DNA of 64,000 nucleotides, from assembly GCF_000429125.1 (NCBI RefSeq), contig NZ_AUBG01000007.1, positions 186,001 to 250,000 on the forward strand, written 5' to 3'. This DNA comes from Aequorivita capsosiphonis DSM 23843 (GTDB lineage: Bacteria; Bacteroidota; Bacteroidia; Flavobacteriales; Flavobacteriaceae). Both the position numbers and the translations under genes were made by a program. The notes under the pieces were generated by a model that was given only the letters and a program-made list of their open reading frames with translations, had not been told where the DNA came from and did no database searches. This document shows, one piece after another, positions 3,432 through 64,000 of this stretch; within the stretch, counting starts at the first letter, position 1; each line of letters starts with the position of its first letter.

Positions 3432-3444
3432 TTTAATAGTTAAG

Positions 3445-3499
3445 AGTTATGAGTTATGAGTTCAGAGTGGTCATAACTCTGAACTCATAACTCATAACT
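3445..3499. repeat. Perfect 24-bp inverted repeat built from a 7-nt unit
   Basis: The arms at 3445-3468 and 3476-3499 are exact reverse complements with a 7-nt loop. They are made of GAGTTAT/ATAACTC units, the same heptamer as the direct repeat at 33210-33279. It sits between divergent genes (ABC exporter and MATE pump), so it could form a strong cruciform or transcript hairpin in both 5' regions. There is no T-tract typical of a terminator. Confidence 0.85.
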
Positions 3500-3540
3500 T
3501 TTTATTTGAATTACAAAGCTATTCTAAAAAACACAAAACC

Positions 3541-15725: not shown

Positions 15726-15754
15726 AAGCCCCTTTCAAAAAAAGAAAGGGACTT
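15726..15754 (-). terminator. Terminator after HAF-repeat paralogue 1
   Basis: On the minus strand GTCCCTTTC and GAAAGGGGC can pair around a T7 loop (one mismatch) and are followed by a short T-run. It lies about 30 bp after the stop codon of the gene at 15781-17076. Confidence 0.65.
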
Positions 15755-15780
15755 AAGTGTATTATAATTAGGGGAGTCTG

Positions 15781-17076
15781 TTATTGTTTAACAACTTTAA
15801 GATTTTCTATACTACCATTGCTAGAAACCTTTACAAGGTAAACACCACTAGCCAAGCTAGAAAGGTTTAATTGCGTGTGGTTATTATTGAAAGTGATATT
15901 AGAAACTCTTTGTCCACTGATCGTGTAAACCTCAACTGAATCGATAATTTCCTTAGAGTTTATATGCATTACATCTGCTATTGGGTTAGGGTAGAAAGAT
16001 ATTGTATTTTCCGAAACAGTGTTAGTTCCCAAGATAAGATCATCAAGATAAACCATCCAACCTTCAGCGAAAGGTGGTGCTCCGTTTACCCATCCTGCAA
16101 TAAATTTTCCATTTGGAGAAATTGCTATAGCTGTACCTAAAAGACCATCCACTGTGTTTACAGTCACGCCATTATCTTCCAAAACATCTTTTAAATAAAG
16201 AGGTTGATTACCAAGTGAAGGATGGTAAATGATTGCGTCTCTTACTTGAAAATCGACATCGGCAAAACCAACAACCACACCGTTTTCAGAAATACTTGTA
16301 AAGGCTGCAGCATCGGCACCTACAGGAATATCATAGGTTGTAAAAGTATTTGATGCTCTGTCGTAAATAAATGGTTGAAGGTCGAAATCACCTACCATTA
16401 CATCATTGCTAGTTATATCGTTAATGGTATTTATTTGATATACTGGTAACTGTCCTTCTGGGATAAAATGATATTCGCCATCCAGGGTTCTGTAAGCAGG
16501 AACTCTTAAGGTTCCACCACCATTGGGACGATCTACCCATCCAACCATAATTCCGTTGTCATTTACTGCGTAAGAAGCACTTGCTTCACCTTCAGGATCA
16601 AAAGTGAGTAGGAGTTCTTCCGTTTCCGTGTCAAATAGAAAACCACCATATTCAAGACCTACACTTGACTGTCCGGTTATGTACTTGCTATTTGGAGAAA
16701 TACCATAAGTAGTATTTTCATCGTAATCAAATGGATTTTGTTCTGGAGTAAATCCGATTGGCTTCCAAACGCCATCCATTCTGTATCCTGCTTGCAAAAT
16801 AAATTCAGGTTCATCATAGATCATGAATCCAGCCACATTTTCATCGTTGTTTATGGATTGAACCATAATTGCTTCGGGTTCAAGTGGAGATAACGCTCCT
16901 GTTGCAAAGTTATAATATGCTCCAACAGTGACTCCAAATCCTGAGTCATTAACATCATTAAAACGAGTGCCCATTTCTGTGAGGACTTTTAACTCAACTT
17001 GAGCTTGCATGTTTGAGGTTCCAAGAAGAACCGCTGCAAAGAGGATGCTCTTCGCTAAAAAGGTAGTTTTTTTCAT
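15781..17076 (-). CDS. Secreted HAF-repeat protein with T9SS type A sorting domain, paralogue 1
   Basis: 431 residues with a signal peptide (FLAKSILFAAVLLGTSNMQAQ). About six repeats of roughly 45 residues follow, built on I(S/N)xNGxxVGxx...FxY (GISPNSKYITGQ, NDNGIMVGWVDRP, SISENGVVVGFADVDF, AISPNGKFIAGWVNG), resembling the HAF extracellular repeat and probably forming a beta-propeller. Residues from about 355 (FYPNPIADVMHINS, YTISGQRV, LSSLASGVYLVKV) are a type A T9SS sorting domain, so the product is exported and anchored or released by the T9SS. Its two paralogues lie in tandem. Ligand and function are unknown. Confidence 0.85.
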   Translation of the reverse strand: MKKTTFLAKSILFAAVLLGTSNMQAQVELKVLTEMGTRFNDVNDSGFGVTVGAYYNFATGALSPLEPEAIMVQSINNDENVAGFMIYDEPEFILQAGYRMDGVWKPIGFTPEQNPFDYDENTTYGISPNSKYITGQSSVGLEYGGFLFDTETEELLLTFDPEGEASASYAVNDNGIMVGWVDRPNGGGTLRVPAYRTLDGEYHFIPEGQLPVYQINTINDITSNDVMVGDFDLQPFIYDRASNTFTTYDIPVGADAAAFTSISENGVVVGFADVDFQVRDAIIYHPSLGNQPLYLKDVLEDNGVTVNTVDGLLGTAIAISPNGKFIAGWVNGAPPFAEGWMVYLDDLILGTNTVSENTISFYPNPIADVMHINSKEIIDSVEVYTISGQRVSNITFNNNHTQLNLSSLASGVYLVKVSSNGSIENLKVVKQ

Positions 17077-17777
17077 ATTAGTGTTTGAATTAAGGTTAAA
17101 TTAATTAGAATTTGCCAAGTAAAAGTAGTTTTAGTTGTATTATAATAAAAGAAACACTCTTTAGTAATTCGGAATTCTGGTAGGGTTTGATTTTGTAAAA
17201 ACCTAAAAATCAGTAAGTAATAAAATTAATTCTTGACTCGTACTATTTGGCTCTTTCGGCTTAAAAAAACATATTATATACTCTTCCTTGTGATTAGGCA
17301 GTTGCACGATCCAATAATTGCAATAGGAGCACGCTAAATGTTAAGCTCTTTTGGAATTCGTTTTTTATTGAAGAAAAACCAATTCTTATGGAAATGAATC
17401 AGCTTTTTGCATTAATAGCAATCACTTCGAATAGGTTTTAAATCATTAGTGTTCGATTAAAATATTGCAAAATCCTGTTGAAACAAAGATACCAGGCATT
17501 TAATACATTTTTATTAAGTGACAGCTTGCTATTAAGTTTATCATTAAAATTTAATAATTAAAAAGCATACTTCATCAATTTAACCTAATTACCAAAGTAT
17601 TAAGAGGCAAGTCTTATATCTTAAGTCTTTTAGCGTCCGCGTGCCGCCATAGCTTTTGCGGATGAGCAAGCGGTCTTACATCTTAGTCGGACACGACTAA
17701 TTTCAAATAATAAACCTCCCATCAAAAATGACGAGAGGTTTGTTTGCATGTTAAGTGCGTAGAATTAGGGGAGTCTG
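17077..17777. other. Long intergenic region between HAF paralogues 1 and 2
   Basis: 701 bp without a supported gene. The segment 17300-17420 is clearly similar to 19256-19380 in the next gap (both contain AATTGCAATAGGAGCACGCT and a GAAGAAAAACCA segment), and 17700-17777 is similar to 19392-19467. These shared blocks show that the gene was duplicated together with its upstream region. The rest is unique and AT-rich, and I see no RNA gene in it. Confidence 0.7.
17712..17741 (-). terminator. Terminator after HAF-repeat paralogue 2
   Basis: AAACCTC and GAGGTTT arms with an inner CATCA pairing region form a hairpin 37 bp beyond the stop codon. The same hairpin occurs at 19402-19431. Confidence 0.65.
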
Positions 17778-19070
17778 TTATTGTTTAACAACTTTAAGAT
17801 TTTCTACACTGCCGTTTCTAGTTACCTTAACAAGATAAACGCCGCTGGCTAAGTTAGAAATGTTTAATTCTTTATTGTTGTTGTTTGAAGTGATATTAGA
17901 AACTCTTTGACCAGTGATTGTGTAAACCGCTACTGAATCAATTGTTTGATTTGAGTTTATATGCAATACATCTGTTACCGGGTTAGGGTAGAAAGACACT
18001 GCGTTTTCTGAAACATTGTTTGTCCCCAAGATAAGATCATCAAGATAAACCATCCAGCCTTGTTCCCACGTTGGTGGGCCGTTTAGATAGCCTACAATAT
18101 ATTCGCCATTGGGAGAAATAGAACTAGCCGTACCCAATAGACCATCGTCAGTATTTACAGCTACGCCATTAGCTGCCAATACATCTTTTAGATAAAGTGG
18201 TTGGTCTCCTAGAGATGGGTGATATACAATTGCATCGCGAATCTCGATATCAATATTAGCATAGCCCACAGCAACACCGTTTTCAGAAATAGATCCAAAA
18301 GTAGCATAGTCTGCGCCCGCTGGAATTTCATAACGCGTAAAAGTATTGGTTGACATATCATAAATGAAAGGTTGTCCGTTAAAATCTCCAGCCATTTGAT
18401 TCGAGGAATTGATGTCATTTATGGTATTAAGGTTAAATGATGGAGATTGACCTTCTGGAATAAGATGATATTCCCCGTCTAGGGTACGGTATGCAGGAAT
18501 ACGAAGTGTTCCGGGATTAGGACGGTTTACCCATCCAACCATTATTCCGTTGTCGTTTACATTATAAAAAGACCCAGCTTCTCCCTCTGGATCAAAAGTG
18601 GCTATCATTTCTTGAGTTTCGGTATCAAATAAAAATCCTCCGTAATCAGATCCTATGTTAAGTTGTCCAGTTATATATTTGTTGTTTGGGGAAATACCAT
18701 ATACTGTATTCTCGTCCATATTTTCAGGATCTTGTTCAGGTAAAAAATCGATTGCATTCCAAGTGCCGCCTACTCTATATCCTGGCTGCAAAATAAAGTT
18801 CGGTTCATCATAAATCATAGTACCTACAACATTCTCATCATTGTTTGTGGCTTGCACCATAAATACTTCTTGTTCAATAGGTGTTAATTGGTTTGTTTCG
18901 AAATCGTAATAACTGTAGACATTTACTCCGAAACCCGAATCATTAACATCATTGAAACGAGTACCCGTTTCAGTAAGTACTTTCAACTCTATTTGGGCTT
19001 GAATATTTGCGGTTCCAAGGAGAATGGCTGCAGGGAAAATGCACGTTTTTAAAAAAGTATTTTTTTTCAT
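17778..19070 (-). CDS. Secreted HAF-repeat protein with T9SS type A sorting domain, paralogue 2
   Basis: 430 residues, aligning end to end with its neighbours. The signal peptide FLKTCIFPAAILLGTANIQAQ is the most diverged part. The repeats keep the same frame (GISPNNKYITGQLN, NDNGIMVGWVNRP, SISENGVAVGYANIDI, SISPNGEYIVGYLNG), and the sorting domain ends YTITGQRVSNITSNNNNK and YLVKVTRNGSVENLKVVKQ. Its C-terminal part is closer to paralogue 3 than to paralogue 1, suggesting stepwise duplication or gene conversion. Secretion by T9SS is supported by the C-terminal domain; the role is unknown. Confidence 0.85.
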   Translation of the reverse strand: MKKNTFLKTCIFPAAILLGTANIQAQIELKVLTETGTRFNDVNDSGFGVNVYSYYDFETNQLTPIEQEVFMVQATNNDENVVGTMIYDEPNFILQPGYRVGGTWNAIDFLPEQDPENMDENTVYGISPNNKYITGQLNIGSDYGGFLFDTETQEMIATFDPEGEAGSFYNVNDNGIMVGWVNRPNPGTLRIPAYRTLDGEYHLIPEGQSPSFNLNTINDINSSNQMAGDFNGQPFIYDMSTNTFTRYEIPAGADYATFGSISENGVAVGYANIDIEIRDAIVYHPSLGDQPLYLKDVLAANGVAVNTDDGLLGTASSISPNGEYIVGYLNGPPTWEQGWMVYLDDLILGTNNVSENAVSFYPNPVTDVLHINSNQTIDSVAVYTITGQRVSNITSNNNNKELNISNLASGVYLVKVTRNGSVENLKVVKQ

Positions 19071-19467
19071 TAATGTTTTTTAAATAGAATTAGTTTGATT
19101 TGAGTCTGCAAAGTAGTTGGAAACATAGGACTAGAAAAGGAAGGGGCTTTCGGAATTCGGAATTTCGGTAGAATCCAAATTTTAAAATACTGAAAGCCAA
19201 TTAGTAAATAAAAATGATTCTACACTCATAATATCCGGTTCTTTGTAATTTGAAAGTTGCAGGAGCCAATAATTGCAATAGGAGCACGCTAAATGTTAAT
19301 AGCTTTTGGAACTGGTTTTTGATTGAAGAAAAACCACTTCTTATGAAAATGACTCAACTTTTTGCATTAAGAGCAATCCCTTCAATTGGATATCTAATAA
19401 AAAACCTCCCATCAAAAATGATGAGAGGTTTGTTTGCACGTTAAGTGCGTAGAATTAGGGGAGTCTG
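19071..19467. other. Intergenic region between HAF paralogues 2 and 3
   Basis: 397 bp, mostly a shorter copy of the 17077-17777 gap. No gene is supported: a 64-codon frame on the plus strand (19250-19444) lies in the duplicated block and is disrupted in the other copy. Confidence 0.65.
19402..19431 (-). terminator. Terminator after HAF-repeat paralogue 3
   Basis: AAACCTC/GAGGTTT outer stem and CATCA/TGATG inner stem around an AAAA loop. Duplicate of the hairpin at 17712-17741, here with the better inner stem. Confidence 0.68.
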
Positions 19468-20766
19468 TTATTGTTTAACAACTTTAAGATTCTCTACACT
19501 GCCGTTGCTAGTTACCTTGACAAGGTAAACGCCGCTGGCCAAGTTAGAAATGTTTAATTCTTTATTGTTGTTGTTTGAAGTGATATTAGAAACTCTCTGA
19601 CCAGTGATAGTGTAAACAGCTACCGAATCAATTGTTTCATTTGAATTTATATGCAATACGTCAGACACTGGGTTAGGGTAGAAAGACACTCCATTTTGAG
19701 AAACATGGTTTGTTCCCAAGATAAGATCGTCAAGGTAAACCATCCAGCCTTCAGCATATTGTGGTGCACCGTTTACCCAACCAGCGATATATTTTCCATT
19801 TGGAGAAATTGATATAGCTGTCCCCAAAAGACCATCGTCAGTATTAACTTCTATGCCGTTATCTGCCAAAACATCTTTTAAATAAAGTGGTTGGTCACCT
19901 AGTGAAGGATGGTAAATAATAGCATCTCTAACTTGGAAATCAACATCGGCATATCCTACAGCTATTCCGTTTTCGGAAATACTTCCAAATGCAGCATGGA
20001 CTGCGCCCGCTGGAATATCAAAGCTAGTAAAAGTATCGGTATTCATATCATAAATAAAAGGTGCTAGATCAAAATCACCTACCATCATATTATTGTTATT
20101 AATTCCTTGAATGGTATTATCACCAGTAAGAGTTGGTAGTTGTCCTTCAGGAATAAGGTGGTATTCTCCATCTAAAGTAATGTATGCAGGAACACGTAAG
20201 GTTCCACCAGAATCTGGACGGTCAACCCATCCAACCATAATACCGTTGTCGTTTACATCATAAGATGAACTTGCTTCTCCTTCGGGGTCAAAAGTCAGTG
20301 CCAATTCTTCAGTTTCAGTATCGTACAAAAACCCACCATAATCATAATCTACGTTGGATTGGCCAGTTATATATTTGCTATTGGGGGAAATGGCATATGT
20401 GAAGTTTTCATCGTAATTATTAGGATTTTGCTCCGGTGCAAACCCGATTGGTTTCCAAACCCCATCTTTTCTGTAGGCTGCTTGTAAAATAAATTCTGGT
20501 TCATTATAAAACATAAATCCAGCAACATTCTCATCATTATTTATCTGTGCCATCATAAATGCTTCAGACTCAATAGGTGTTAATTGGTTTGTTTCAAAAT
20601 CGTAATAATCATACATGGTAACTCCTGTTCCAGCGTCGTTCACATCGCTAAATCGGGTTTCCATTTGGGTTTGTACTTTTAATTCAATCTGAGCTTGAAT
20701 GTTTGAAGCTCCAAGAAGAACCGCCGCAAGGAAAACGCTCTTCGCTAAAAAGGTAATTTTTTTCAT
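19468..20766 (-). CDS. Secreted HAF-repeat protein with T9SS type A sorting domain, paralogue 3
   Basis: 432 residues with the signal peptide FLAKSVFLAAVLLGASNIQAQ, HAF-like repeats (AISPNSKYITGQSN, NDNGIMVGWVDRPD, SISENGIAVGYADVDF, SISPNGKYIAGWVNG) and the same type A sorting domain (FYPNPVSDVLHINSNETIDS). It is nearest to the TPR and TPR-AraC genes on the same strand, 183 bp from the TPR gene stop. It combines features of paralogue 1 (repeat region) and paralogue 2 (C-terminus), as expected if the copies recombine. Confidence 0.85.
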   Translation of the reverse strand: MKKITFLAKSVFLAAVLLGASNIQAQIELKVQTQMETRFSDVNDAGTGVTMYDYYDFETNQLTPIESEAFMMAQINNDENVAGFMFYNEPEFILQAAYRKDGVWKPIGFAPEQNPNNYDENFTYAISPNSKYITGQSNVDYDYGGFLYDTETEELALTFDPEGEASSSYDVNDNGIMVGWVDRPDSGGTLRVPAYITLDGEYHLIPEGQLPTLTGDNTIQGINNNNMMVGDFDLAPFIYDMNTDTFTSFDIPAGAVHAAFGSISENGIAVGYADVDFQVRDAIIYHPSLGDQPLYLKDVLADNGIEVNTDDGLLGTAISISPNGKYIAGWVNGAPQYAEGWMVYLDDLILGTNHVSQNGVSFYPNPVSDVLHINSNETIDSVAVYTITGQRVSNITSNNNNKELNISNLASGVYLVKVTSNGSVENLKVVKQ

Positions 20767-20949
20767 TTTTATAATTTTAAATAGAATTAGTTTGATTTAA
20801 GTCCGCAAAGTAGATGGAATTATACTATAATAAAAGAAACAGGCTTTCGGAATTCGGAATTCCTGTAAAATTTGATTTCTAAAAATTTAATGGTCAGTTT
20901 GTTGTAGGTAGGTAAGCAGTGGTTAATATTAGCCTTATTTCTGAGAGAA

Positions 20950-24733: not shown

Positions 24734-25312
24734 TTACAGCCAACACGGTTTTTTAGTATTGTCCAATGTGGATTTATTGAGATTGAACTCTCCAGTTATA
24801 GTCTTCTCAATTGAAGGATCTGCCGTACTAACCATTTCTGACGTAAATGTTCCTACCAGTATTCCTGAACCACTATCATACTCCGTTATTTCAATTGTTC
24901 CATTGGCAGAACTGATATAAGAATAGGAGTTTGTAGATTCATCTTCAATAAATAATGAAGTTATTTCAGCACAATATATTGCTACATGATCTGGATTTCC
25001 AGTAGATATTGAATAATTCCCTACAGCACCAATGTTTGTCATAGTAATGTATAAACCTAAATCATCTTCAGTTCTTATTGTAAATAGCCAAGTATTATCA
25101 TTTGATGTACATCGTTGTATATATAAAGTATAGAGCCCAAATCCACCCCCTTGATTATAATAGGGTTCTATGATTTGTCCATCAAAATCCGCCTCAAAAA
25201 AGTTTTTATTCTTTATACAATCTTGATCTCCGTTATTATCATCGTCTTTATTACAACTGGATAATAATAGGGCAAATATTATTAAGGATTTTAAAATCAT
25301 AAATTTTTTCAT
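24734..25312 (-). CDS. Putative lipoprotein, island copy B
   Basis: 192 residues with a lipoprotein signal peptide: KSLIIFALLLSSC with lipobox LSSC, followed by the acidic NKDDDNNGD spacer. The mature part is beta-rich (FFEADFDGQIIEP, NGTIEITEYDSGSGILVGTF, then PSIEKTITGEFNLNKSTLD) and ends CWL. It is a paralogue of the lipoprotein at 25693-26283, sharing the start, the FNCE/FTSE..S.DPSI core and the CWL end. It may be related to Bacteroidota lipoproteins of the DUF6252 kind, but this is uncertain. Secreted via Sec and lipid-anchored; function unknown. Confidence 0.78.
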   Translation of the reverse strand: MKKFMILKSLIIFALLLSSCNKDDDNNGDQDCIKNKNFFEADFDGQIIEPYYNQGGGFGLYTLYIQRCTSNDNTWLFTIRTEDDLGLYITMTNIGAVGNYSISTGNPDHVAIYCAEITSLFIEDESTNSYSYISSANGTIEITEYDSGSGILVGTFTSEMVSTADPSIEKTITGEFNLNKSTLDNTKKPCWL

Positions 25313-25331
25313 TTTTTCATTTTTAAAATTA

Positions 25332-25640
25332 TTATCTTTCTATACTTATGTGTTTTGTTGCTTCGACTCCATTCTGTTCTATAATCTTTAAAATATAAAT
25401 ACCATTAGGGATGTTGCCAACTTCCAAAATTATGGAATTGTTGCTTGTACTACGGCTTGCTGTTTTTTCCTGTCCAAACATATCATACAAAATGGCGGTG
25501 ATTGCAGTATTTTCGCTTTGCGTATTGACAATGGTTACCATATCTTTTGCGGGAACGGGATAGACCACAAAATTCTTTATTGGCTGCGGCCGTCCTTCAT
25601 CTTCCACAATAACGAACCGTACCGTGGTAAAATGCGGGTT
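25332..25640 (-). pseudogene. Orphan T9SS sorting domain, 3' remnant of a second esterase copy
   Basis: The frame reads NPHFTTVRFVIVEDEGRPQP and continues into a complete type A sorting domain (FVVYPVPAKDMVTIVNTQS, YDMFGQEK, GIYILKII). It matches the last about 100 residues of the esterase at 26280-28967 closely. A TGA stop and unrelated sequence lie just upstream, so no catalytic part and no signal peptide remain. An internal ATG at 25605-25607 could give a 91-residue product, but without a signal peptide it could not be exported. I read it as the stump left when [esterase + lipoprotein] was tandemly duplicated and one esterase was deleted. Confidence 0.82.
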
Positions 25641-25692
25641 TATAGAGACCGATCAGTTACAAAATATTTTATATAAAACAATGCTTTTCATA

Positions 25693-26283
25693 TTACAGCC
25701 AACAAGGCTTTTCATCAATATTAAGTGTAGAGAGATTGATATTAAAGTCACCGCTAATCGGGGATATTATACTTGGGTCAAAGGAGTTGTATAATTCACA
25801 ATTAAAGGTTCCAATTAAAATACCATCCTCAGAATTATAATCAGTAATTCTTATATCTCCCGATCCTTCCTTGCTGAAATAATAAATAGTTGAATTATCT
25901 ACAATTTTTTCAACATAAATATATGTTTTGGAAAACGTGAAGGGGGGAGGGGGGAGTTCGCTTGAAGTTGCCGCTTCTATAAGATAATTGCCCGTGCCAT
26001 TAACATTTACCAACGAAAAATTTAAGGATATCCTATTGTTGGATGTTAAAGAGATTTCCCAGTCATTTTCATCCTCATTATTTCTATTTACAGATAATGT
26101 ATATGCACTTACTCCTCCACCTGTAATCCATCTTGGTTCAATTATCTCACCTTGAAACTCCGCCTCAAAAAAATTCTCTTCCTTTACGCAGTCTTGTCCA
26201 TTTTTATTGTCATCGTCCTTATTGCAACTCGTTGCAATAATAGCGCATATAATAAGCGATTTTAAAATCATATAACGTTTCAT
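25693..26283 (-). CDS. Putative lipoprotein, island copy A
   Basis: 196 residues with a lipobox signal (KSLIICAIIATSC), an NKDDDNKNGQD spacer and a mature domain with FFEAEFQGEIIEP, GDIRITDYNSEDGILIGTF and the CWL end shared with copy B. The start overlaps the esterase stop by 4 bp, so it is translated together with the esterase and may be its surface partner or an immunity-like protein; this is speculation. A run of two G6 tracts at 25942-25954 (encoding the ELPPPPF segment) is absent from copy B and could be a secondary slippage site. Confidence 0.8.
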   Translation of the reverse strand: MKRYMILKSLIICAIIATSCNKDDDNKNGQDCVKEENFFEAEFQGEIIEPRWITGGGVSAYTLSVNRNNEDENDWEISLTSNNRISLNFSLVNVNGTGNYLIEAATSSELPPPPFTFSKTYIYVEKIVDNSTIYYFSKEGSGDIRITDYNSEDGILIGTFNCELYNSFDPSIISPISGDFNINLSTLNIDEKPCWL

Positions 26284-28967
26284 TTCTCTATGTTTAAATG
26301 TTTTATTACCTCAATTCCGTTGTTTCCAATAATCTTTAAAATGTAAATGCCTTCGGGAACATATCCAACGTCAAGGGTCAGGGAATTGTTGTCTACAGCT
26401 CGGTGCGATGTTTTTTCCTGTCCAAACATATCATACAAAATGGCAGTGATTGCGGTATTTTCGCTTTGTGTATTGACAATGGTTATCATATTTTTTGCGG
26501 GAACGGGATAGACCACAAAACTCTCTATTGGCTGCGGCCGTCCTCCATCTTCCACAATAACGAACCGTACCGGGGTAAATTGCGGGTTGCCGCATTCATC
26601 GGTAATCGTGAACCGAAAATCAATGACGGAGTTAAAATTTTTGTTCATATAATAGAAGGTCAAGGTGCTACCACCTGAGGACCAACTGTCCAGCGAATTA
26701 TCGTTGTCAGCCCAAACCGTCCAAGTTGGGTTGGATGCGCCCGTGGGCATATTGGGCCTTACGGTTACCTTTTGAGCCGCAGGTAAATTGAGCGGGTCTG
26801 GATCGCCCAGCAGGGTATTGTTGCCGCCACCGGTCAATAAGGTATATGTTATACCAATTGGAGGATCTACCTTATACGTTCCGCCAGAAGGATAGGTGCC
26901 CGTACCTCCCGGATATGGGTCTTGGGGATTTCCTTCAATTTCTTCAAAAAGGTAATATGAAGAAGTGGAAGACAAAAAAGTATGGGGCTCATTGGTTGAG
27001 GGTGCTGAGTGATAACTGTTAAATGGGGTATTGTTAGTGCATACTAAATTTCGGTTTATATCTTCATAAAGGTGCGGATCCCCTTGATAGTCCAAGGCGC
27101 TTTTTGTTGGTATAAAGCTGAACTTGTCACTGGAAAGTTCCAGATCCATTCCGGCCACAAACCAGTCAAAACCCAGTTCGGTAAGCTCTAAAATATCTTT
27201 GTCAAGCGTTTCCAATGTGGCGATACCGCCGGGAGCGTTTTCCAAGCTGCCCATGCTGGGGTTGGTATAGGAATAGCGCTGGCGGTGCCATACGGTTACG
27301 CCCAGCAACTTGAGCCTCCAGTTGAACACCCTTGCATTGCCGGAATTATTGGTAAACTTTAAGCGAATGTTTCCATCTATCAAGACCCAAAGCAAATGAG
27401 CCTTGCCCTCAAAGTATTTTTGATTTATATCGCTGGTCCCGTTGCCATAGAAGCTACCATTTACCACCGCAATATTCCTAGAATTTTGTGGGTAGCCCAT
27501 AGTGCTCAAGTTTCCATAAAAAGTATTGTGAAATGTGGAAGAATTATAATGGTTTGATAGTAATTGTTTTACTGCTGGATTTTCCAAGTTTTCACCAATT
27601 TCTGAAAACTCTTCATAATCTTCGCCCCAGTTAGGTACAACATCATCCACAAAATCAATCATTTCCTGAGCCCCTCTTGGTACGGTTGCACCTTGGTGGG
27701 GCGCATCTACAGATGCGTATAAATCTACATCGTGTGTTAGGCTGTTAAGCTCCATATATCGTAAGGCATAACGCGCAATAACACCGCCCATGCTAAAACC
27801 GATAACCTTAGTAGGCTCTGCATTAGTACTTTTGTTCTGGTTTATGAATGTAATCAATTTTACTAAAACCATGGCGTTCCTTTCTATATAATCGGTTCCT
27901 CCAGCAACGGTTTTTCCGTTGATGGGACGAGGTTCAAAATTTAAGGTAATTACATCATAATCATTGTTGACGAGATCGGTAGATAGTCCATTTCTATTTA
28001 ATTGAGCTGTTCCAAAAATATCATCATTATCAAAAGTATCAGCAGGATCATACCCTTCCACAACGATTATGGGTTTATCTACACAAGTTGTGTTTGAATG
28101 GTTAGCATATCTACCAATGCCCACATAAGCCTGGCCCTCATCATACCCCTGAAAGGTATAGGGTGCAGATGAAAACACTTGGGTAACTGGTATCGCACAA
28201 TTACTGGGCAATGTGGACATAGTCTCGCTTATCAAGACTTCATCATTGGGACTTACAATCTCTAAAACTGAGGTGACGGTTTTTGTGGCATTATTGCTAA
28301 AGGTTGCTTTTATACTTATATCTTTGTTGCCGTAAGCTGCATACTGTATATAATAGGTTTGGTTTTTTACTACAGTTCTGTACCCGACCCCGTCATTAAA
28401 ATCAATTTGTAAACTGCTAATGCTATACTGTGCAGTTTCTTTCCAGAATACACTGGGCAGTTTAAAGTATATACTTTTTAAAGTAGTTTTTTTCTTGAGA
28501 CTTGATGCCACAAAAATATTCTTGTATTCATTGTAAGGAGATAAAGAGGAATTGGGGTTATCATAAAAAAGACTATCATTTCCTTGGACAATTAAAGCTC
28601 CTATGTCCAAGGCATCATCTTTAAATTTATTTATATCGGCATTAATAAAACCGATATTAATTATATTACTTGCAGTTTGATTGTTTGTAATTAAAGTTTC
28701 AGGATTTGTGAATCTGTTCAAATAATCCATCCTATAAAGATCTTCCATCGCCAAAAAATAATGTCCGGCATTACTGTTTGGCACACTAGGCACTAAAGGT
28801 GCAAAACCGGAAGGAGTTCCATAACCTAAAATATTTGAAAGAGGGAGCGTTCTGTCATAAAGGATTCGTGTAGGGACATCGTTTGGATTCAGATGTTGAA
28901 TTTTGGTCTGGATCTCGGTACGTACATTATCCATAAAAGTTTGTGCTGTGGCAGCATAGGCAATCAT
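26280..28967 (-). CDS. Secreted alpha/beta-hydrolase (lipase/esterase-like) with T9SS type A sorting domain; 5' end interrupted by a C11 tract
   Basis: The open frame has 895 codons. Residues 297-480 resemble a lipase-type alpha/beta hydrolase: PIIVVEGYDPADTF, a nucleophile elbow GFSMGG at 390-395 (Ser392), then YASVDAPHQGATVP. Residues about 820-895 form a type A T9SS sorting domain (FVVYPVPAKNMITIV, YDMFGQEK, GIYILKIIG). The natural start is an ATG at 29018-29020, but the 11-C tract (28994-29004 on the plus strand) puts it out of frame. With 12 or 9 C's the N-terminus would be MKQSITPPPPRRIVLFLFF followed by MIAYAATAQ, a full signal peptide. In the present state only a truncated one could be made from 28967. 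A TAAATTTG promoter box lies at 29098. Confidence 0.86.
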   Translation of the reverse strand: MIAYAATAQTFMDNVRTEIQTKIQHLNPNDVPTRILYDRTLPLSNILGYGTPSGFAPLVPSVPNSNAGHYFLAMEDLYRMDYLNRFTNPETLITNNQTASNIINIGFINADINKFKDDALDIGALIVQGNDSLFYDNPNSSLSPYNEYKNIFVASSLKKKTTLKSIYFKLPSVFWKETAQYSISSLQIDFNDGVGYRTVVKNQTYYIQYAAYGNKDISIKATFSNNATKTVTSVLEIVSPNDEVLISETMSTLPSNCAIPVTQVFSSAPYTFQGYDEGQAYVGIGRYANHSNTTCVDKPIIVVEGYDPADTFDNDDIFGTAQLNRNGLSTDLVNNDYDVITLNFEPRPINGKTVAGGTDYIERNAMVLVKLITFINQNKSTNAEPTKVIGFSMGGVIARYALRYMELNSLTHDVDLYASVDAPHQGATVPRGAQEMIDFVDDVVPNWGEDYEEFSEIGENLENPAVKQLLSNHYNSSTFHNTFYGNLSTMGYPQNSRNIAVVNGSFYGNGTSDINQKYFEGKAHLLWVLIDGNIRLKFTNNSGNARVFNWRLKLLGVTVWHRQRYSYTNPSMGSLENAPGGIATLETLDKDILELTELGFDWFVAGMDLELSSDKFSFIPTKSALDYQGDPHLYEDINRNLVCTNNTPFNSYHSAPSTNEPHTFLSSTSSYYLFEEIEGNPQDPYPGGTGTYPSGGTYKVDPPIGITYTLLTGGGNNTLLGDPDPLNLPAAQKVTVRPNMPTGASNPTWTVWADNDNSLDSWSSGGSTLTFYYMNKNFNSVIDFRFTITDECGNPQFTPVRFVIVEDGGRPQPIESFVVYPVPAKNMITIVNTQSENTAITAILYDMFGQEKTSHRAVDNNSLTLDVGYVPEGIYILKIIGNNGIEVIKHLNIEK

Positions 28968-58086: not shown

Positions 58087-59706
58087 CTACAATACTTCGG
58101 AATCTAAAGTGTCAGTAACCACATAATACCGCGGATCTTCGATGGAATCTTCAATTATGGTTTCAAATTCAGGATTCCATTTTAGCAAGAGCTCTTTACA
58201 ATCTGGGCTGAGGTGGGTCAATTTAATTTGTTTTCCGCTATCTAAATATTTATTTGCAATATTTCGAACCGCTTCTACCCCGGAATGATCCGATATTTTA
58301 GATTCTATAAAATCAATTTCAATGCAATCTGGATCCGTTGAAACGTCAAACTTACTATTGAAAGCAGTAGTTGAACCAAAAAACAAGGGTCCCCAGATTT
58401 CGTAAATTTTCGTACCGTCTTCTTTAAGTCTTTTTCGTGCACGGATTCGTGTAGCGCTTTTCCAGGCAAATACAAGCGCGCTCATAATAACCCCTACCAA
58501 GACTGCGATTGCGAGATCCTGCCAAACAGTTACTGCTGAAACGGTTATTAAAACTATGGCATCTGCCAATGGTATTTTATGTAAAATCCTAAAACTGCTC
58601 CAAGCGAAGGTTCCTATCACCACCATAAACATTACTCCAACCAATGCGGCAATAGGTATTTGTTCAATTAACGGAGCTCCAAAAAGCACAAAACATAATA
58701 GCGCAATTGCTGCCGTGGCACCGGAAAGTCTTCCACGTCCACCAGAACTAACGTTAATAATGGATTGCCCAATCATAGCGCAACCACCCATACCTCCAAA
58801 GAGCCCGTTTAGCATATTAGCACCTCCCTGTGCAACACATTCGCGATTACCGCTACCGCGAGTTTCGGTCATTTCATCTATTAAATTCAAGGTCATTAAA
58901 GATTCAATCAAGCCAACAGCAGCTAACAAAAATGCGGTTGAAATTATCAGATCCCAATGCCCGTTTAAGGTTTCAAGAAATCCAAAAATCTGTGTTTGGA
59001 AAACAGGTAAGGAGCCTTTAAGGCCACTACCTCCTCCGTCGCGAATAAAAGAACCAACGGTGCTCACATCAATTCCTCCAAAAATTGTAATGCATGCCAC
59101 CACGATGATAGCTATTAATGCGGCGGGAAGTTTTTTGGTGAGCTTAGGTAGGCCGAACATAATACCCATTGTTATCCCAACCAGAGCGAGCATTATCCAT
59201 AAGTCCGTCCCTGTAAGCCATTGCGGCACAGTACCACGACTTTCCTTAAAAAGGCCTAATTGCGAAAGAAAAATAATAATGGCAAGACCGTTTACAAAAC
59301 CCATCATAACGGGATGGGGGATTAGGCGTACAAATTTCCCTAACTTAAAGACTCCTGCTGAAATTTGGATTGCTCCAACAAACAAAAGCGTGATAAAGAG
59401 CCATTGCAGTCCTAGATAATCAACGGGTTCTGCCAGGGTCAACCCCACTTCATTCCCTTTTTGGATTAAATGGACCATAACAACTGCCATCGCCCCGGTA
59501 GCACCTGAAATCATTCCCGGTCTTCCACCAAAAATTGCTGTTACAAGGCCCATTATAAACGCACCATAGAGTCCAACAAGTGGATCAATGCCCGCCACAA
59601 ATGAAAAGGCAACAGCTTCTGGCACCAACGCCAAAGCAACGGTAAGTCCAGAAAGTATATCGTTTTTAGGATTTTGAGTAAAGGATAATAGATATTTTGC
59701 TAGCAT
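58087..59706 (-). CDS. SulP family inorganic anion transporter
   Basis: 539 residues: about twelve membrane helices and a C-terminal STAS domain (residues about 435-539). Motifs are DILSGLTVALALVPEAVAFS near the start, GLYGAFIMGLVTAIFGGRPG, then the second half GSGNRECVAQGGANMLNGLF. In the STAS domain SDHSGVEAVRNIANKYLDSG resembles the conserved D-S/H-G switch. SulP proteins carry sulfate, bicarbonate or related anions; the subgroup is not clear. A TATCTTTG promoter box lies upstream. A decayed fragment of residues 360-430 lies at 62193-62403. Confidence 0.93.
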   Translation of the reverse strand: MLAKYLLSFTQNPKNDILSGLTVALALVPEAVAFSFVAGIDPLVGLYGAFIMGLVTAIFGGRPGMISGATGAMAVVMVHLIQKGNEVGLTLAEPVDYLGLQWLFITLLFVGAIQISAGVFKLGKFVRLIPHPVMMGFVNGLAIIIFLSQLGLFKESRGTVPQWLTGTDLWIMLALVGITMGIMFGLPKLTKKLPAALIAIIVVACITIFGGIDVSTVGSFIRDGGGSGLKGSLPVFQTQIFGFLETLNGHWDLIISTAFLLAAVGLIESLMTLNLIDEMTETRGSGNRECVAQGGANMLNGLFGGMGGCAMIGQSIINVSSGGRGRLSGATAAIALLCFVLFGAPLIEQIPIAALVGVMFMVVIGTFAWSSFRILHKIPLADAIVLITVSAVTVWQDLAIAVLVGVIMSALVFAWKSATRIRARKRLKEDGTKIYEIWGPLFFGSTTAFNSKFDVSTDPDCIEIDFIESKISDHSGVEAVRNIANKYLDSGKQIKLTHLSPDCKELLLKWNPEFETIIEDSIEDPRYYVVTDTLDSEVL

Positions 59707-59725
59707 TCTGTTTTTTAAAGGGCGG

Positions 59726-59733
59726 CAAAGATA
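59726..59733 (-). promoter_or_regulatory. Promoter -7 box TATCTTTG for the SulP gene
   Basis: Exact TAnnTTTG on the minus strand, 19 bp before the ATG. Confidence 0.6.
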
Positions 59734-59861
59734 GGGTTTTCATACCATTTGGAAAGCTATAATGGAAGTTTTGGGGATTTCAATTGAATGATCAATACTT
59801 ACTTTAAGATGTTGCGTCCTTATTTTATAAATCCTTGAACAATCTTTTTAAGAACAAAACA

Positions 59862-59881
59862 AGCTGTCCAGAAAGACAGCT
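59862..59881 (-). terminator. Terminator after the propeller gene
   Basis: AGCTGTC and GACAGCT are exact 7-bp arms around a 6-nt loop, with TTGTTTTG following on the minus strand; T7 follows on the plus strand. Confidence 0.72.
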
Positions 59882-59912
59882 CGTTTTTTTGAGGTTCCTA
59901 ATTTTTTCAAAA

Positions 59913-61802
59913 TTACCCAATGGGCGGGTTGATTATGGATTCCCTGCCAAATAGTACATAATACGGATCGAACCTGTGTCCTGCAGTGGTGGTGGCATCT
60001 TGCAGTATTACGTAACCAAACCCGGCAAACAGACGAGGGTCTGAGCCTGCCTGCCTTGCGGAAACATAATCTCCCCATCGGGTGTGGGTCCATGTACTTC
60101 CATCGCGGTACCAAACCACATAATCGCCAATAATGCCGACCGCACTGTTGGCGTTCAAACTGCCGCCGCCACCCCAACCGAGGGCAATGCCCACTTCGTT
60201 ATTTGTATTGGTAGCCAAACATGGATAGCCAAAGGCAAAATCAGGGTTCCAAATTTGCATTTGTTCCACCATGTTATAGGAGCCTATTTCAATTTTAACT
60301 AATTGTACATGCGGATGGGGGAAGCTGAAGCCTCCAAACCCACCGTCTCCGCTACTTGCCATCCAGGACATCCAGATTTCGTTTTGTTTTCGCGTGATCC
60401 CGATTATGGCATTGTTCGGAAATACTTTTGCAAACCAATTGTTCCCATTGGGCCCATTCGATACACGTGTTTGGTTTGGCCAGTTATTCACATCCACACT
60501 TCGCCAAAAATAGGTGTTGGAGTTTTCTTTCCAGCTAAAAACACGGATGGTGCTGTTATCTATGTGGCCGCCCCAGAATACTTCATCTCCGGTATTTTGG
60601 GAAACGTTGCTTCCCCACGCCAAAGCCGAATCGCCTGGGTTTGTGTACCAAAAATTAATGGTGGCGGAGTCCCGGATTTCATCCAAGGGAATTCGAACTA
60701 CCACCAAGCCGTTGTCTGCCGTACTGTCCGGCACAGAGTCCAATACATCAAAACTTAAGTATAACGAATTATTGCCAACCGACAAACTTGGATAATCCAT
60801 CCAGTCCGTACCCAGATTGAAACTGGCCGAAGTAAGGTCCCAATACGTCCATGCAGTACAATTGCTGTCAATGATATCCTGTGGGCTTGCAGATGCCAAT
60901 CTATAGGCATTATTCCCGCTGGTCGTCGAACTGTATTGCAAAAGCCAAATAAAGCGGTCGATACTTGGGACATATTGAATTACTTGGTCGCAACAAAATC
61001 CGCCAGCCAAGGTATTGGGAAAAATGGTGGTGGGATTGAGGGTCGTAAAAGTTTGCCCACCATCGGTGGAATATTGCACATACCAGTTTCCGGACAGCAT
61101 TATCACGGGCATCTCCCCATTGTTATTTCTTCCGCTTTGCGCCCCACTTATATCTGCGGCGTTCGCACTTGCTGGCGATACGGTATTGTTAAAAGTATAC
61201 GTGCCAAAAATCACGGGATCCGGAGCTCCGTCTGCGGCTCCCATTACTTGGGGCTTGGATCCCAAACTCTCTGAGATAAGACCTTTGAATGGGCCTCTTG
61301 GCACTTCCAATCCCGGTCTATTATTGGGCGGGCGAGAGGGATTGTCCACTTTTACAATTGGGCCATAGGGGGCATCTTTTACTTTTTTCGGAATAGCTTT
61401 GCCTTCAAAACCCTCGTGGGAACCTGAATCGTCTTTTGTGGATTTAATGCAGGGCTTGTATTTACAGATAATCCTGTCTTTATCTTTTTCAGAAGGACAG
61501 CATTTTTCCAATTGCTTTTTAATATCTTCCAGTTCACCAATCCTTGCAACGGCGTCTGGCTTTTGGTATTTATAAATTTCCAGGAGTGTGGAGATTTCTT
61601 TGAGTAATTTCTTTTGAATCGTCGTTTGCCAATGGAGCTCATTTACAGACTGGCACGTTTGTTTTGAGATCTTCTCCAATTGACAAGTTATGGTTTCAAA
61701 ATAATTGATCATTGACCCCAAAAGTTGATTCTGGTACTTTGATTGTTCCAACATTTTTTTGAACAACTCAAAACTTTCGGATTTTTTTTCATTTTCTTCC
61801 AT
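59913..61802 (-). CDS. Coiled-coil plus beta-propeller protein of unknown function
   Basis: 629 residues from ATG at 61800-61802. Residues 1-150 are helical and charged (KKSESFELFKKMLEQSKYQN, NELHWQTTIQKKLLKEISTL), with a Cys cluster in QLEKCCPSEKDKDRIICK. A proline-rich linker (VDNPSRPPNNRPGLEVPRGP) leads to a beta-propeller of the BNR/sialidase-like type (NWYVQYSTDGGQTFTTLNPT, IDNSTIRVFSWKENSNTYFW, SWMASSGDGGFGGFSF). There is no signal peptide and no T9SS sorting domain, although such propellers are usually extracellular. The gene lies between a sulP remnant and sulP. Function unknown. The start at 61958 adds 52 residues of doubtful value. Confidence 0.78.
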   Translation of the reverse strand: MEENEKKSESFELFKKMLEQSKYQNQLLGSMINYFETITCQLEKISKQTCQSVNELHWQTTIQKKLLKEISTLLEIYKYQKPDAVARIGELEDIKKQLEKCCPSEKDKDRIICKYKPCIKSTKDDSGSHEGFEGKAIPKKVKDAPYGPIVKVDNPSRPPNNRPGLEVPRGPFKGLISESLGSKPQVMGAADGAPDPVIFGTYTFNNTVSPASANAADISGAQSGRNNNGEMPVIMLSGNWYVQYSTDGGQTFTTLNPTTIFPNTLAGGFCCDQVIQYVPSIDRFIWLLQYSSTTSGNNAYRLASASPQDIIDSNCTAWTYWDLTSASFNLGTDWMDYPSLSVGNNSLYLSFDVLDSVPDSTADNGLVVVRIPLDEIRDSATINFWYTNPGDSALAWGSNVSQNTGDEVFWGGHIDNSTIRVFSWKENSNTYFWRSVDVNNWPNQTRVSNGPNGNNWFAKVFPNNAIIGITRKQNEIWMSWMASSGDGGFGGFSFPHPHVQLVKIEIGSYNMVEQMQIWNPDFAFGYPCLATNTNNEVGIALGWGGGGSLNANSAVGIIGDYVVWYRDGSTWTHTRWGDYVSARQAGSDPRLFAGFGYVILQDATTTAGHRFDPYYVLFGRESIINPPIG

Positions 61803-61958
61803 GGTATTTGGTTTTAATGGATTCGTAAAAACTTTTCGCAAATTGGATTTATGGATCCATTTCCGAATTGAGGAGAGTGTAAGTCTTATAATTAAAAGAA
61901 ACCTGCAGTGATTGTCAAGCGGCTTATAATGGATATCCATTAGTCGTTCGCGGCACAA

Positions 61959-62192
61959 CTAAAAAGAAATGGATATTTTTTAATTGGGAAGAAATAGTTT
62001 CCCAAAAAAATGGGCTTTTAAATGTAGGGAAAATTCACAAATAAACCTATTAAAAACTGATTATTAACAGGTTGCGCAATCGTGATTAAGGAAATAGTTA
62101 AATTCTATAGCAAAATGAATTTCCTTATTTTGTCCATTTAATCCTCTATTTTTGAGTTTTGAGTGAAATTTCTTAGAGTTTTCTGAAACATA
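61959..62192. other. AT-rich gap upstream of the propeller gene
   Basis: Together with the leader from 61803, about 390 bp without a recognised gene or consensus promoter box. The sulP remnant starts at 62193. Confidence 0.45.
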
Positions 62193-62403
62193 TTCTTTAA
62201 TTCTTTTTCGCGAGCGGATTCGTGTAGCGCTTTTCTAGGCCAACACAAGAGCGCTTATAATAGCCGCTACCAAGAACGCGATTGCTAGATTATTCCAAAC
62301 AGTTGCTGTCCAAACAGTTTATCAAAACTATTGCATCTGCTAGAAGTAATTTATATAAAATTCTAAAACTGCTCCAAGCGATGTTCCCTTCACTACCATA
62401 AAC
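62193..62403 (-). pseudogene. Decayed fragment of a SulP transporter gene
   Basis: The 211 bp align without large gaps to 58420-58630 inside the intact SulP gene (residues about 360-430), with roughly four fifths of bases identical. Shared blocks include GGATTCGTGTAGCGCTTTTC and ATTCTAAAACTGCTCCAAGC versus ATCCTAAAACTGCTCCAAGC. Frameshifts and stops remove the coding potential. It ends 10 bp from the stop codon of the oxidoreductase at 62413. So the propeller gene sits between a sulP relic and intact sulP. Confidence 0.88.
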
Positions 62404-62412
62404 TCAGGAAGT

Positions 62413-64000
62413 TTATTGCCTTTGTTGTTCCTTGATTTCTTTAAAAAGCTTCCAAGAACCAAATTTGAGAATTGTGGTTGCACAGAGTAAACCTGAAAGC
62501 ATGGCTCCAGCAACACCAACTAAAGTAATGTCCTGCCCAGTTAAATACAATCCTTTTATTTGTGTCTTGGGACGTAGAAACGAAAGGGAGAATCTTTCGG
62601 GAGAATGCGCCAAACCATATATTTCACCACTTTTGTAATTCGTGAAATTTTCGGTAGAAAGTGGTGTTGAAACTTCGGAAGCAACCACACTTCCTTCAAT
62701 TTGAGGGAAAAATCGATATAGAACCTTTAGCATTTTAGCTTCAAAATCCTTTTTCAGATTTATATACTCATCTCCTCTTTTCATCCAATTGGTATTTTTA
62801 TAGGCTTCAAACCATTCCATATTTCCTATGGAAATTGCTTGTATAGTTGCAGTTCCAGGATTTTTGATTTCCCATTCTGGATCTTTAGCGGAAGGGAAGG
62901 AGATATAAGCAAAATTCTCTGGAGCATTTTGAATGGTAGATTCTTCAAAAATCTTGTCGATATCATCGTGTTTGTAATACCAAAAATTATGCTTCGGAAG
63001 ATTTAAAGCTTCACTGGATTTGTTCAAGCCGAGATATAAACAAATATGCGCACTTGCGGGTTTTACATTTTTTAAATTGAATTTACAACCCTTCCTATCT
63101 GCTTCTGAAAGTAACTGATTAAAAGTATTGTTTACGCCTACATTGCTGATCACACTTTTGCAGGGAATGAATTTTTCGCCAATTTGAATTCCTTGAACCT
63201 GGTTGTTTTTAGTTATAATCTCAGTTACATCTGCATTGATGTAAATTTTACCGCCGTGCGCCGTAAAAACTTCAAGGGTTTTTTTACAAATCTGATCAGC
63301 CCCGCCAACAGGATAATAACCGCCTTCCAAAAAATGACCAATTACCATAGCGTGAGCGACGAAACTGCTGTTTTTTGGAGATAGTCCATAATTACCACAT
63401 TGTGAGCAGAGCACAGCAATTAATCTTTTGTTACCGGTTATTTTGCTTAAAACCTCCCAAGTAGTTTTATTTGAAAATTTTGAATATCTATTTCTGAAAA
63501 ACCATCCAGCAATCTTACTTAACCACGGCTCAAATGTTTTTTCAAAAAAGAAAGCACTGCCGCGTTTATTTGCTTTTTCTATAAGTTGTAAATACGTGTC
63601 GATTGCTTTTTCTTCCATTGGAAAATAGCCTGTTAACTGTTTTCTGAAGTTTTCCTTACCTGCTTTAAAGATATATTCCGAACCGTCAATATTTGCAACG
63701 TCGTAAACATCTCCCATAGATTCCCACGCTAAGTTTCCATCGGTTAAAAAGTCGAAAAAACCACGGAGTGAGGAATCTTCACCCATATTGCCCACGTAGT
63801 GTACGCCAACATCCCACTGAAAACCATCTTTGCGTTTAAAACTATGTGTAAAACCACCTGGAACGTAATGACGTTCGAAAATTGCAACCTTCTTTCCAGC
63901 TTTCGCCAGCCAAGTAGCAACTGTAAGTCCGCCCATGCCGCTACCAACAATAATATGATCCAAACTAGAAAAGTCGAAATTGGGTTTGTAAGCTTGGTAA
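62413..64000 (-). CDS. FAD-dependent phytoene-desaturase/carotenoid-isomerase-like oxidoreductase, N-terminus cut
   Basis: At least 528 codons. The frame stays open to the window end (reading YQAYKPNFDFSSLDHIIVG into the protein), so the start lies outside. The FAD-binding motif DHIIVGSGMGGLTVATWLAK is at the start, followed by VAIFERHYVPGGFTHSF, and the C-terminal FAD motif LYLTGQDITLVGVAGAMLSG is near the end. This pattern fits the CrtI/retinol saturase/carotenoid isomerase superfamily. Members act on polyunsaturated lipids or carotenoids; the exact reaction cannot be stated. The gene overlaps nothing and is next to a sulP remnant. Confidence 0.88.
   Translation of the reverse strand, partial: YQAYKPNFDFSSLDHIIVGSGMGGLTVATWLAKAGKKVAIFERHYVPGGFTHSFKRKDGFQWDVGVHYVGNMGEDSSLRGFFDFLTDGNLAWESMGDVYDVANIDGSEYIFKAGKENFRKQLTGYFPMEEKAIDTYLQLIEKANKRGSAFFFEKTFEPWLSKIAGWFFRNRYSKFSNKTTWEVLSKITGNKRLIAVLCSQCGNYGLSPKNSSFVAHAMVIGHFLEGGYYPVGGADQICKKTLEVFTAHGGKIYINADVTEIITKNNQVQGIQIGEKFIPCKSVISNVGVNNTFNQLLSEADRKGCKFNLKNVKPASAHICLYLGLNKSSEALNLPKHNFWYYKHDDIDKIFEESTIQNAPENFAYISFPSAKDPEWEIKNPGTATIQAISIGNMEWFEAYKNTNWMKRGDEYINLKKDFEAKMLKVLYRFFPQIEGSVVASEVSTPLSTENFTNYKSGEIYGLAHSPERFSLSFLRPKTQIKGLYLTGQDITLVGVAGAMLSGLLCATTILKFGSWKLFKEIKEQQRQ

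Follow-up and report, generated by a model that had tools for sequence, protein, structure and literature searches.

The window, a stretch of 64,000 nucleotides from Aequorivita capsosiphonis DSM 23843, carries near one end an intact gene for a SulP-type transporter and a broken piece of that same gene. Between them lies a gene for a protein with a propeller-like part (hereafter the propeller gene), and a gene for an FAD-dependent oxidoreductase (the FAD gene) follows the broken piece. The features are:

58087-59706, minus strand: intact sulP gene, 539 aa (ORF, domain matches and congener orthologues)
58397-58630, minus strand: stretch of sulP that is duplicated in the relic, codons 359-436 (blastn)
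59707-59772, minus strand: region upstream of sulP, conserved with congeners and carrying a TATCTTTG element
59862-59881, no strand assigned: terminator-like hairpin with T/A runs (hairpin search)
59913-61802, minus strand: propeller gene, 629 aa from its ATG (ORF, structure model and homologues)
61803-62167, no strand assigned: AT-rich stretch between relic and propeller gene, 365 bp, G+C 0.31 (composition)
62168-62403, minus strand: sulP relic, 236 bp, codons 359-436 with stops and frameshifts (blastn and frame translation)
62413-63999, minus strand: FAD gene, left open by the end of the window; syntenic neighbour of sulP in congeners

The product of the intact gene matches the Sulfate_transp family of Pfam at 176.4 bits (gathering cut-off 23.2), and on the strength of this predicted domain it is a SulP anion transporter. 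A C-terminal STAS match scores 21.9 bits, just below the Pfam cut-off of 22.6, and the NCBIfam sulP subfamily model gives 246.1 bits, below its cut-off of 380.45. Upstream of the gene, about 32 bp are conserved in many congeners, and 67 alignment columns are 78% identical with the congener G013. The -7 promoter motif of Bacteroidota is TAnnTTTG. The hairpin search found one terminator-like site against a mean of 3.1 in shuffled sequences, which is not significant. The FAD gene product is closest to phytoene desaturase and carotenoid isomerase models, all of them below their cut-offs; its stop codon is separated from the relic end by 9 bp.

The earlier note had placed a relic of sulP codons about 360-430 at 62193-62403, in the same orientation as the gene. 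A blastn comparison of the sulP region with positions 59700-64000 confirmed this and extended the relic slightly, to 62168-62403 and codons 359-436: it aligns with 58397-58630 over 192/237 identities (81%, 4 gaps, E 3e-57). Relic and sulP are on the same strand, with the propeller gene between them, and no third sulP-like place was found in the genome at E <= 0.001. The relic has stops in each of its three frames. Its differences from the intact gene at codon positions 1, 2 and 3 number 12, 8 and 21, compared with 6-11, 0-3 and 29-41 between the intact gene and 24 congener orthologues over the same stretch. The changes in the relic are thus unconstrained, with stops, frameshifts and substitutions at every codon position, and a mild third-position excess left (p = 0.04 against uniform). 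Such an excess is expected if the intact sulP has gathered some silent changes as well; part of the divergence may predate the decay or sit on the branch of the intact gene. No Rfam match to the relic region was obtained at gathering thresholds, and an RNA family was therefore rejected.

The AT-rich stretch at 61803-62167 is single-copy in the genome and has no match in the congener stretches that were fetched; positions 61700-62412 have none in plasmids. No trace of sulP codons 437-539 was detected in it: its local alignment with the sulP 3' end scored 27, where shuffled sequences reached up to 30.

To place the relic, we used a genus sample of 28 genomes, namely this one and 27 congeners. 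A sulP orthologue is present in 24 of the 27, at about 88-95% amino acid identity, the copy of G019 being split over two contigs. In G003 a contig end leaves just the first 22 codons visible; no orthologue was seen in G002 or G020. The relic DNA is 81% identical to the sulP of its own genome and 69-74% identical to that of 23 congeners, while the intact gene and congener sulP genes share 75-81% over the aligned length. Among the 28 genomes the relic was found in this one alone, in a search that was not exhaustive since it missed the G006 sulP, which matches the relic at 73% in the alignment. G014 and G023 gave additional short matches (31 and 44 bp), which seem to be chance hits. No sulP relic was detected between sulP and the FAD gene in 18 congeners when each gap was compared with the sulP of the same genome (for G003 and G019 with the part of sulP that was available).

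A maximum-likelihood tree of 28 rows (the intact sulP, the relic, 24 congeners and two outgroups), in which the relic fills 14% of the columns, joined the relic to the intact sulP as its sister with support 99/95. The end branch of the intact gene has length 0, and that of the relic is 0.71 and flagged as long. At the 41 substitutions between the two, the state of the intact gene is the commoner one in the 24 congeners at 33 positions and that of the relic at 7, with one tie. Conversely, the intact sulP departs from the congener majority at 40 positions, and the relic has the same state at 27 of them. The sister position and the mostly commoner state of the intact gene both indicate that the relic is a copy of sulP made in this lineage, which then decayed, as judged from these alignments. 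The earlier note had proposed comparing sulP neighbourhoods in relatives and had raised a complete second sulP at this position as the sign of simple gene decay. No second sulP of similar identity was seen in the congeners, including the 24 of 27 with a complete or near-complete orthologue. The nearest, and the sole second copy above 40% listed, is a paralogue of 59% amino acid identity in G019, on a contig that holds part of sulP. An old paralogue as the source of the relic was rejected, as the tree pairs the relic with the intact sulP alone.

The interval between sulP and the FAD gene is variable throughout the genus. The congener gene order is trx, p55453, csaA, (DUF2391), lipoprotein, sulP and FAD gene, with members missing in some genomes. 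In 18 congeners, a single fetched stretch covers both sulP (part of it in G003 and G019) and the FAD gene. The gap is 78-194 bp in 10 of them, an uninterrupted site with one orthologous sulP (the first 22 codons in G003), and the other 8 harbour cargo. Judging by the look of the sequences, we take this cargo to be an mscS-like gene in G009, G012, G018, G023 and G027, a DUF2339/DUF3999-like pair in G001 and G004, and an oxidoreductase-like gene in G006. In G014, G016, G022 and G026, such cargo stands behind sulP and the FAD gene is off the fetched stretch; in G014 it comprises the DUF2339/DUF3999-like pair together with an mscS-like gene that is cut off by the contig end. Neither cargo genes nor the FAD gene were seen in G008, G015 and G024. 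A close orthologue of the mscS-like gene is lacking from the genome under study, whose best match reaches 30% (E 6e-13). Across the interval (58087-63999; congener stretches L059-L085), it looks as if cargo genes had been gained and lost repeatedly.

In its conserved flanks and its species-specific cargo (mscS-like, DUF2339/DUF3999-like pair, oxidoreductase-like, propeller), the interval resembles an integration hotspot. It differs from one in that no integrase, tRNA or border repeat was noticed at the site. About 2.4 kb, from 59773 to 62167, are likely a foreign insert; we place its border there because homology to the DNA upstream of congener sulP genes reaches to about 59772. Positions 59600-62500 contain eight inverted pairs of at least 14 nt; in no case do the two arms lie at the two presumed borders, and no repeat of at least 14 nt marks both ends of the insert. 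A transposon or insertion sequence as cargo was rejected, as no terminal inverted repeat of at least 14 nt connects the two insert ends.

The propeller gene encodes a protein with an N-terminal helical region containing conserved Cys residues, a linker and a C-terminal propeller-like part; an upstream TTG start would give an ORF of 681 aa. The earlier note had described its product as a coiled coil plus a propeller, with no signal. The charged N-terminus is helical in a low-confidence model and has no hydrophobic signal stretch by eye. The structure model of the whole protein could not be used (pLDDT 42.3). That of the C-terminal domain (pLDDT 53.5, pTM 0.66) gave weak fold matches, with TM-scores of 0.21-0.44 on query length for the best 50 of 1,175. 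Many of these 50 are beta-propellers, a fold class that includes sialidases and PLL/PHL lectins. The protein differs from those in having an N-terminal helical region and conserved cysteines, with no signal seen. As these matches are generic and come from a low-confidence model, the C-terminal part may be called 'propeller-like' at most. Together with the conserved cysteines, they suggest that the protein could be a binding scaffold.

No match above a curated cut-off was found for this protein in Pfam or NCBIfam, and none in the PDB by sequence. A link with defence was rejected in the absence of a PADLOC match. Phages gave no match, nor did viral contigs with six peptide patterns that reach close relatives only, and plasmids gave three records with distant matches (29.0-30.6%); a mobile or viral home for the gene was thus rejected. 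The homologue on the Streptomyces plasmid NZ_CP109155.1 (L099:6665-32856; 30.5%) has a contractile-tail-like gene set, one that includes a DUF4157 gene, at a distance of about 4.5 kb.

A scan of 84,980 species with the six peptide patterns, which again reaches close relatives only, identified the nearest full-length relatives in Phyllobacterium brassicacearum, Pseudoroseomonas oryzae and a Methylobacter MAG (50-57% identity in the best segment). Homologues were detected in 1 of 395 genomes of a phylum sample (this one alone), in 5 of 397 of a family sample (this one and four others) and in 5 of 99 relatives (this one and four congeners). The congeners have five homologues in all, two in G014 and one each in G004, G010 and G013. 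They align with the propeller protein from about residue 137 on, at 41-46% identity, and begin with an apparent membrane anchor or lipoprotein signal. The homologues from other family genera (L100/G802, L101/G640 and L102/G557) are interrupted within the aligned part by one or two in-frame stops.

A tree of 11 proteins, for which we chose a root on Streptomyces and Ruegeria and in which some branches are flagged as long, places the window protein with the three proteobacterial relatives (97/99), and with the two alphaproteobacteria among them at 99/99. The five congener homologues fall apart from this group. The propeller gene has a G+C of 0.455 and a GC3 of 0.476, the highest among the genes compared, with 0.31-0.34 for the GC3 of the flanking genes. 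This grouping and the high GC3 argue for horizontal acquisition of the gene, probably from a source of proteobacterial type.

The earlier note had counted the sulP relic as the third case in the window of an accessory gene enclosed by a gene and a piece of the same gene. Two other pairs do exist, but they are of a different kind, as both repeat 3' gene ends and the sulP piece is internal. In the first, a 52-bp piece at 776-827 repeats the end of the gene at 1593-3431 (copy at 1594-1645, 85%), and the start of a 96-aa gene (835-1125) recurs as 60 bp at 548-607 (92%). The 113-aa and 96-aa genes within 548-1645 are, we presume, a toxin-antitoxin module. Beside the gene at 1593-3431 there is a 61-bp inverted repeat (3442-3502, 88.5%). 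In the second pair, the last 102 codons of the gene at 26280-28967 are repeated at 25335-25640 (against 26280-26588) with 75% amino acid identity and no stops. They enclose a lipoprotein-like gene at 25693-26283, and its 43% paralogue at 24734-25312 lies directly behind the piece. Thus, 24734-26588 is a tandem duplication of a gene end plus the lipoprotein-like gene. The window also contains three tandem paralogous genes with 71-77% amino acid identity (15753-20898).

Since the window was chosen for its cases, no rate was drawn from it. We surveyed 400 kb outside it, from parts of two contigs of the same genome (C2 and C5), along with a chosen 400 kb of G017. By a rough and uncontrolled rule, which put the window pair 25164-26588 under non-gene as its piece is in a short ORF, the former has 14 local pairs (4 gene plus relic, 9 non-gene, 1 gene-gene) and the latter 6 (0, 4 and 2, respectively). 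Two of the four gene-plus-relic pairs lie in one repeat-rich stretch. In one of the four, on contig C2, an 83% repeat of the end of an hsdR-like gene flanks three small genes (L123:4870-6556), of which we take one to be HTH-like and one SecB-like. The differences between its copies are mostly at the third position (14/21), unlike those of the sulP relic, so the pairs as a group are of more than one age or kind; this one looks younger or derived from recombination. On the same contig, an 847-aa permease-like gene is followed, after about 420 bp, by a second copy of a piece from near its end (L116:8013-8639, 87%).

We consider it moderately probable that the locus combines a partial sulP duplication specific to this lineage, since decayed, with a gene acquired separately in a variable interval. 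After the split from the sampled congeners, a tandem duplication would have spanned the DNA from just behind the FAD gene to about codon 436 of sulP, with one complete sulP staying beyond it. The truncated upstream copy, being of no use, would have been free to decay, losing its first 358 codons and gathering stops, frameshifts and unconstrained changes. The propeller gene would have come separately by horizontal transfer and settled in the same interval. The extent of the original duplication, the order of these steps and the independence of the relic from the propeller gene are our inference from the single genome that has the arrangement. According to PMC3784515, tandem duplication is the commonest form of merodiploidy in bacteria.

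As a broken piece of a neighbouring gene, on the same strand, in one lineage and changed at all codon positions, the relic resembles other decayed tandem or partial duplicates, and it groups on a long branch with the parent gene of its own genome (99/95). It differs from them in that only internal codons 359-436 survive and in that it stands apart from its parent, with a probably foreign gene in between. On the other hand, homology drops sharply after codon 436, at the edge facing the insert, and this requires a partial duplication or an additional deletion. The lack of any visible copy of the FAD-gene end between relic and insert also counts against tandem duplication, because one that started inside the FAD gene would leave such a copy.

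The earlier note had suggested that relic and propeller gene stem from one event. The geometry allows it, the truncated 3' edge of the relic facing the insert and the intact sulP being located across from it. Nevertheless, nothing ties the two together: the relic occurs in one genome, 365 bp lie between it and the propeller gene, and no repeat of at least 14 nt is shared by the two borders. The interval also varies in relatives in which no sulP relic was seen, and its variability thus needs none. Therefore, decay of a duplicated sulP suffices by itself; a single event is possible and unproven, and the simplest account is an ordinary one.

Stated fully, a single insertion with target duplication would have left the propeller DNA flanked on each side by a copy of the segment that runs from the FAD-gene end to codon 436 of sulP. 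The side continuing into codons 437-539 would have stayed a working sulP while the other decayed. We regard this as tentative and rather doubtful. Insertion with long target duplication was reportedly described by Nobusato et al. in 2000. We drew its features from its name and from PMC1643837, which offers a precedent in Helicobacter pylori. The locus is similar in having a gene between direct copies of host sequence and relatives with the plain site (the junction lacks an insert in 10 of 18 congeners). The order of FAD gene, sulP piece up to codon 436, foreign gene and complete sulP with its own upstream region would also fit, and other gene-end duplications here enclose small accessory genes (776-1645; L123 4870-6556). 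Those cases, however, duplicate gene ends and have the piece on the downstream side; for sulP it is an internal part and lies upstream. The cargo is not a restriction-modification system as in the precedent. The repeats are 81% alike and hence not fresh. Moreover, only the relic borders directly on the insert; the other copy of codons 359-436 (58397-58630) lies about 1.1 kb inside the gene, so the upstream copy must be assumed to have lost 358 codons and the spacer.

It is quite unlikely that a sulP piece from a close relative arrived joined to the propeller gene and served as a homologous anchor for its integration. Homology-facilitated illegitimate recombination is known, going by titles in the reference list of PMC3784515, and the relic retains some third-position excess. 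Against this, the relic groups with the sulP of its own genome and with none of the 24 congeners, having 27 of the 40 own-specific states in common, and the nearest relatives of the propeller protein were found in Proteobacteria rather than in congeners. An old second sulP at this place in the genus, decayed everywhere with a remnant here alone, is very improbable: the distant SulP of G019 (59% amino acid identity) would fit it, but the tree largely refutes it by making the relic sister of the intact sulP alone, and the gaps of 18 congeners (two compared with part of sulP) hold no trace. Hardly credible, finally, is a relic kept for a function as a small RNA, promoter or leader of the propeller gene, upstream of which it lies on the same strand, given its changes over all codon positions, the lack of an Rfam match at gathering thresholds and the separate 365-bp stretch in between.

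The decay of a lineage-specific sulP duplicate beside a separately acquired gene is overall most likely ordinary genome turnover. By itself, the locus amounts to another decayed duplicate within an interval of variable content. The propeller family occurs in distant phyla and is unnamed in every library searched, and a structure would be useful. A broader reading, which we consider improbable, is that this genome repeatedly gains accessory genes by recombination that duplicates part of a neighbouring gene, with one copy preserved intact and a relic left across the newcomer. The sulP/propeller locus would then be an old example and the hsdR-like/toxin-antitoxin-like locus a younger one. If such a footprint of partial duplication were common around accessory genes here, it would be a readable trace of the integrase-free entry of genes into chromosomes.
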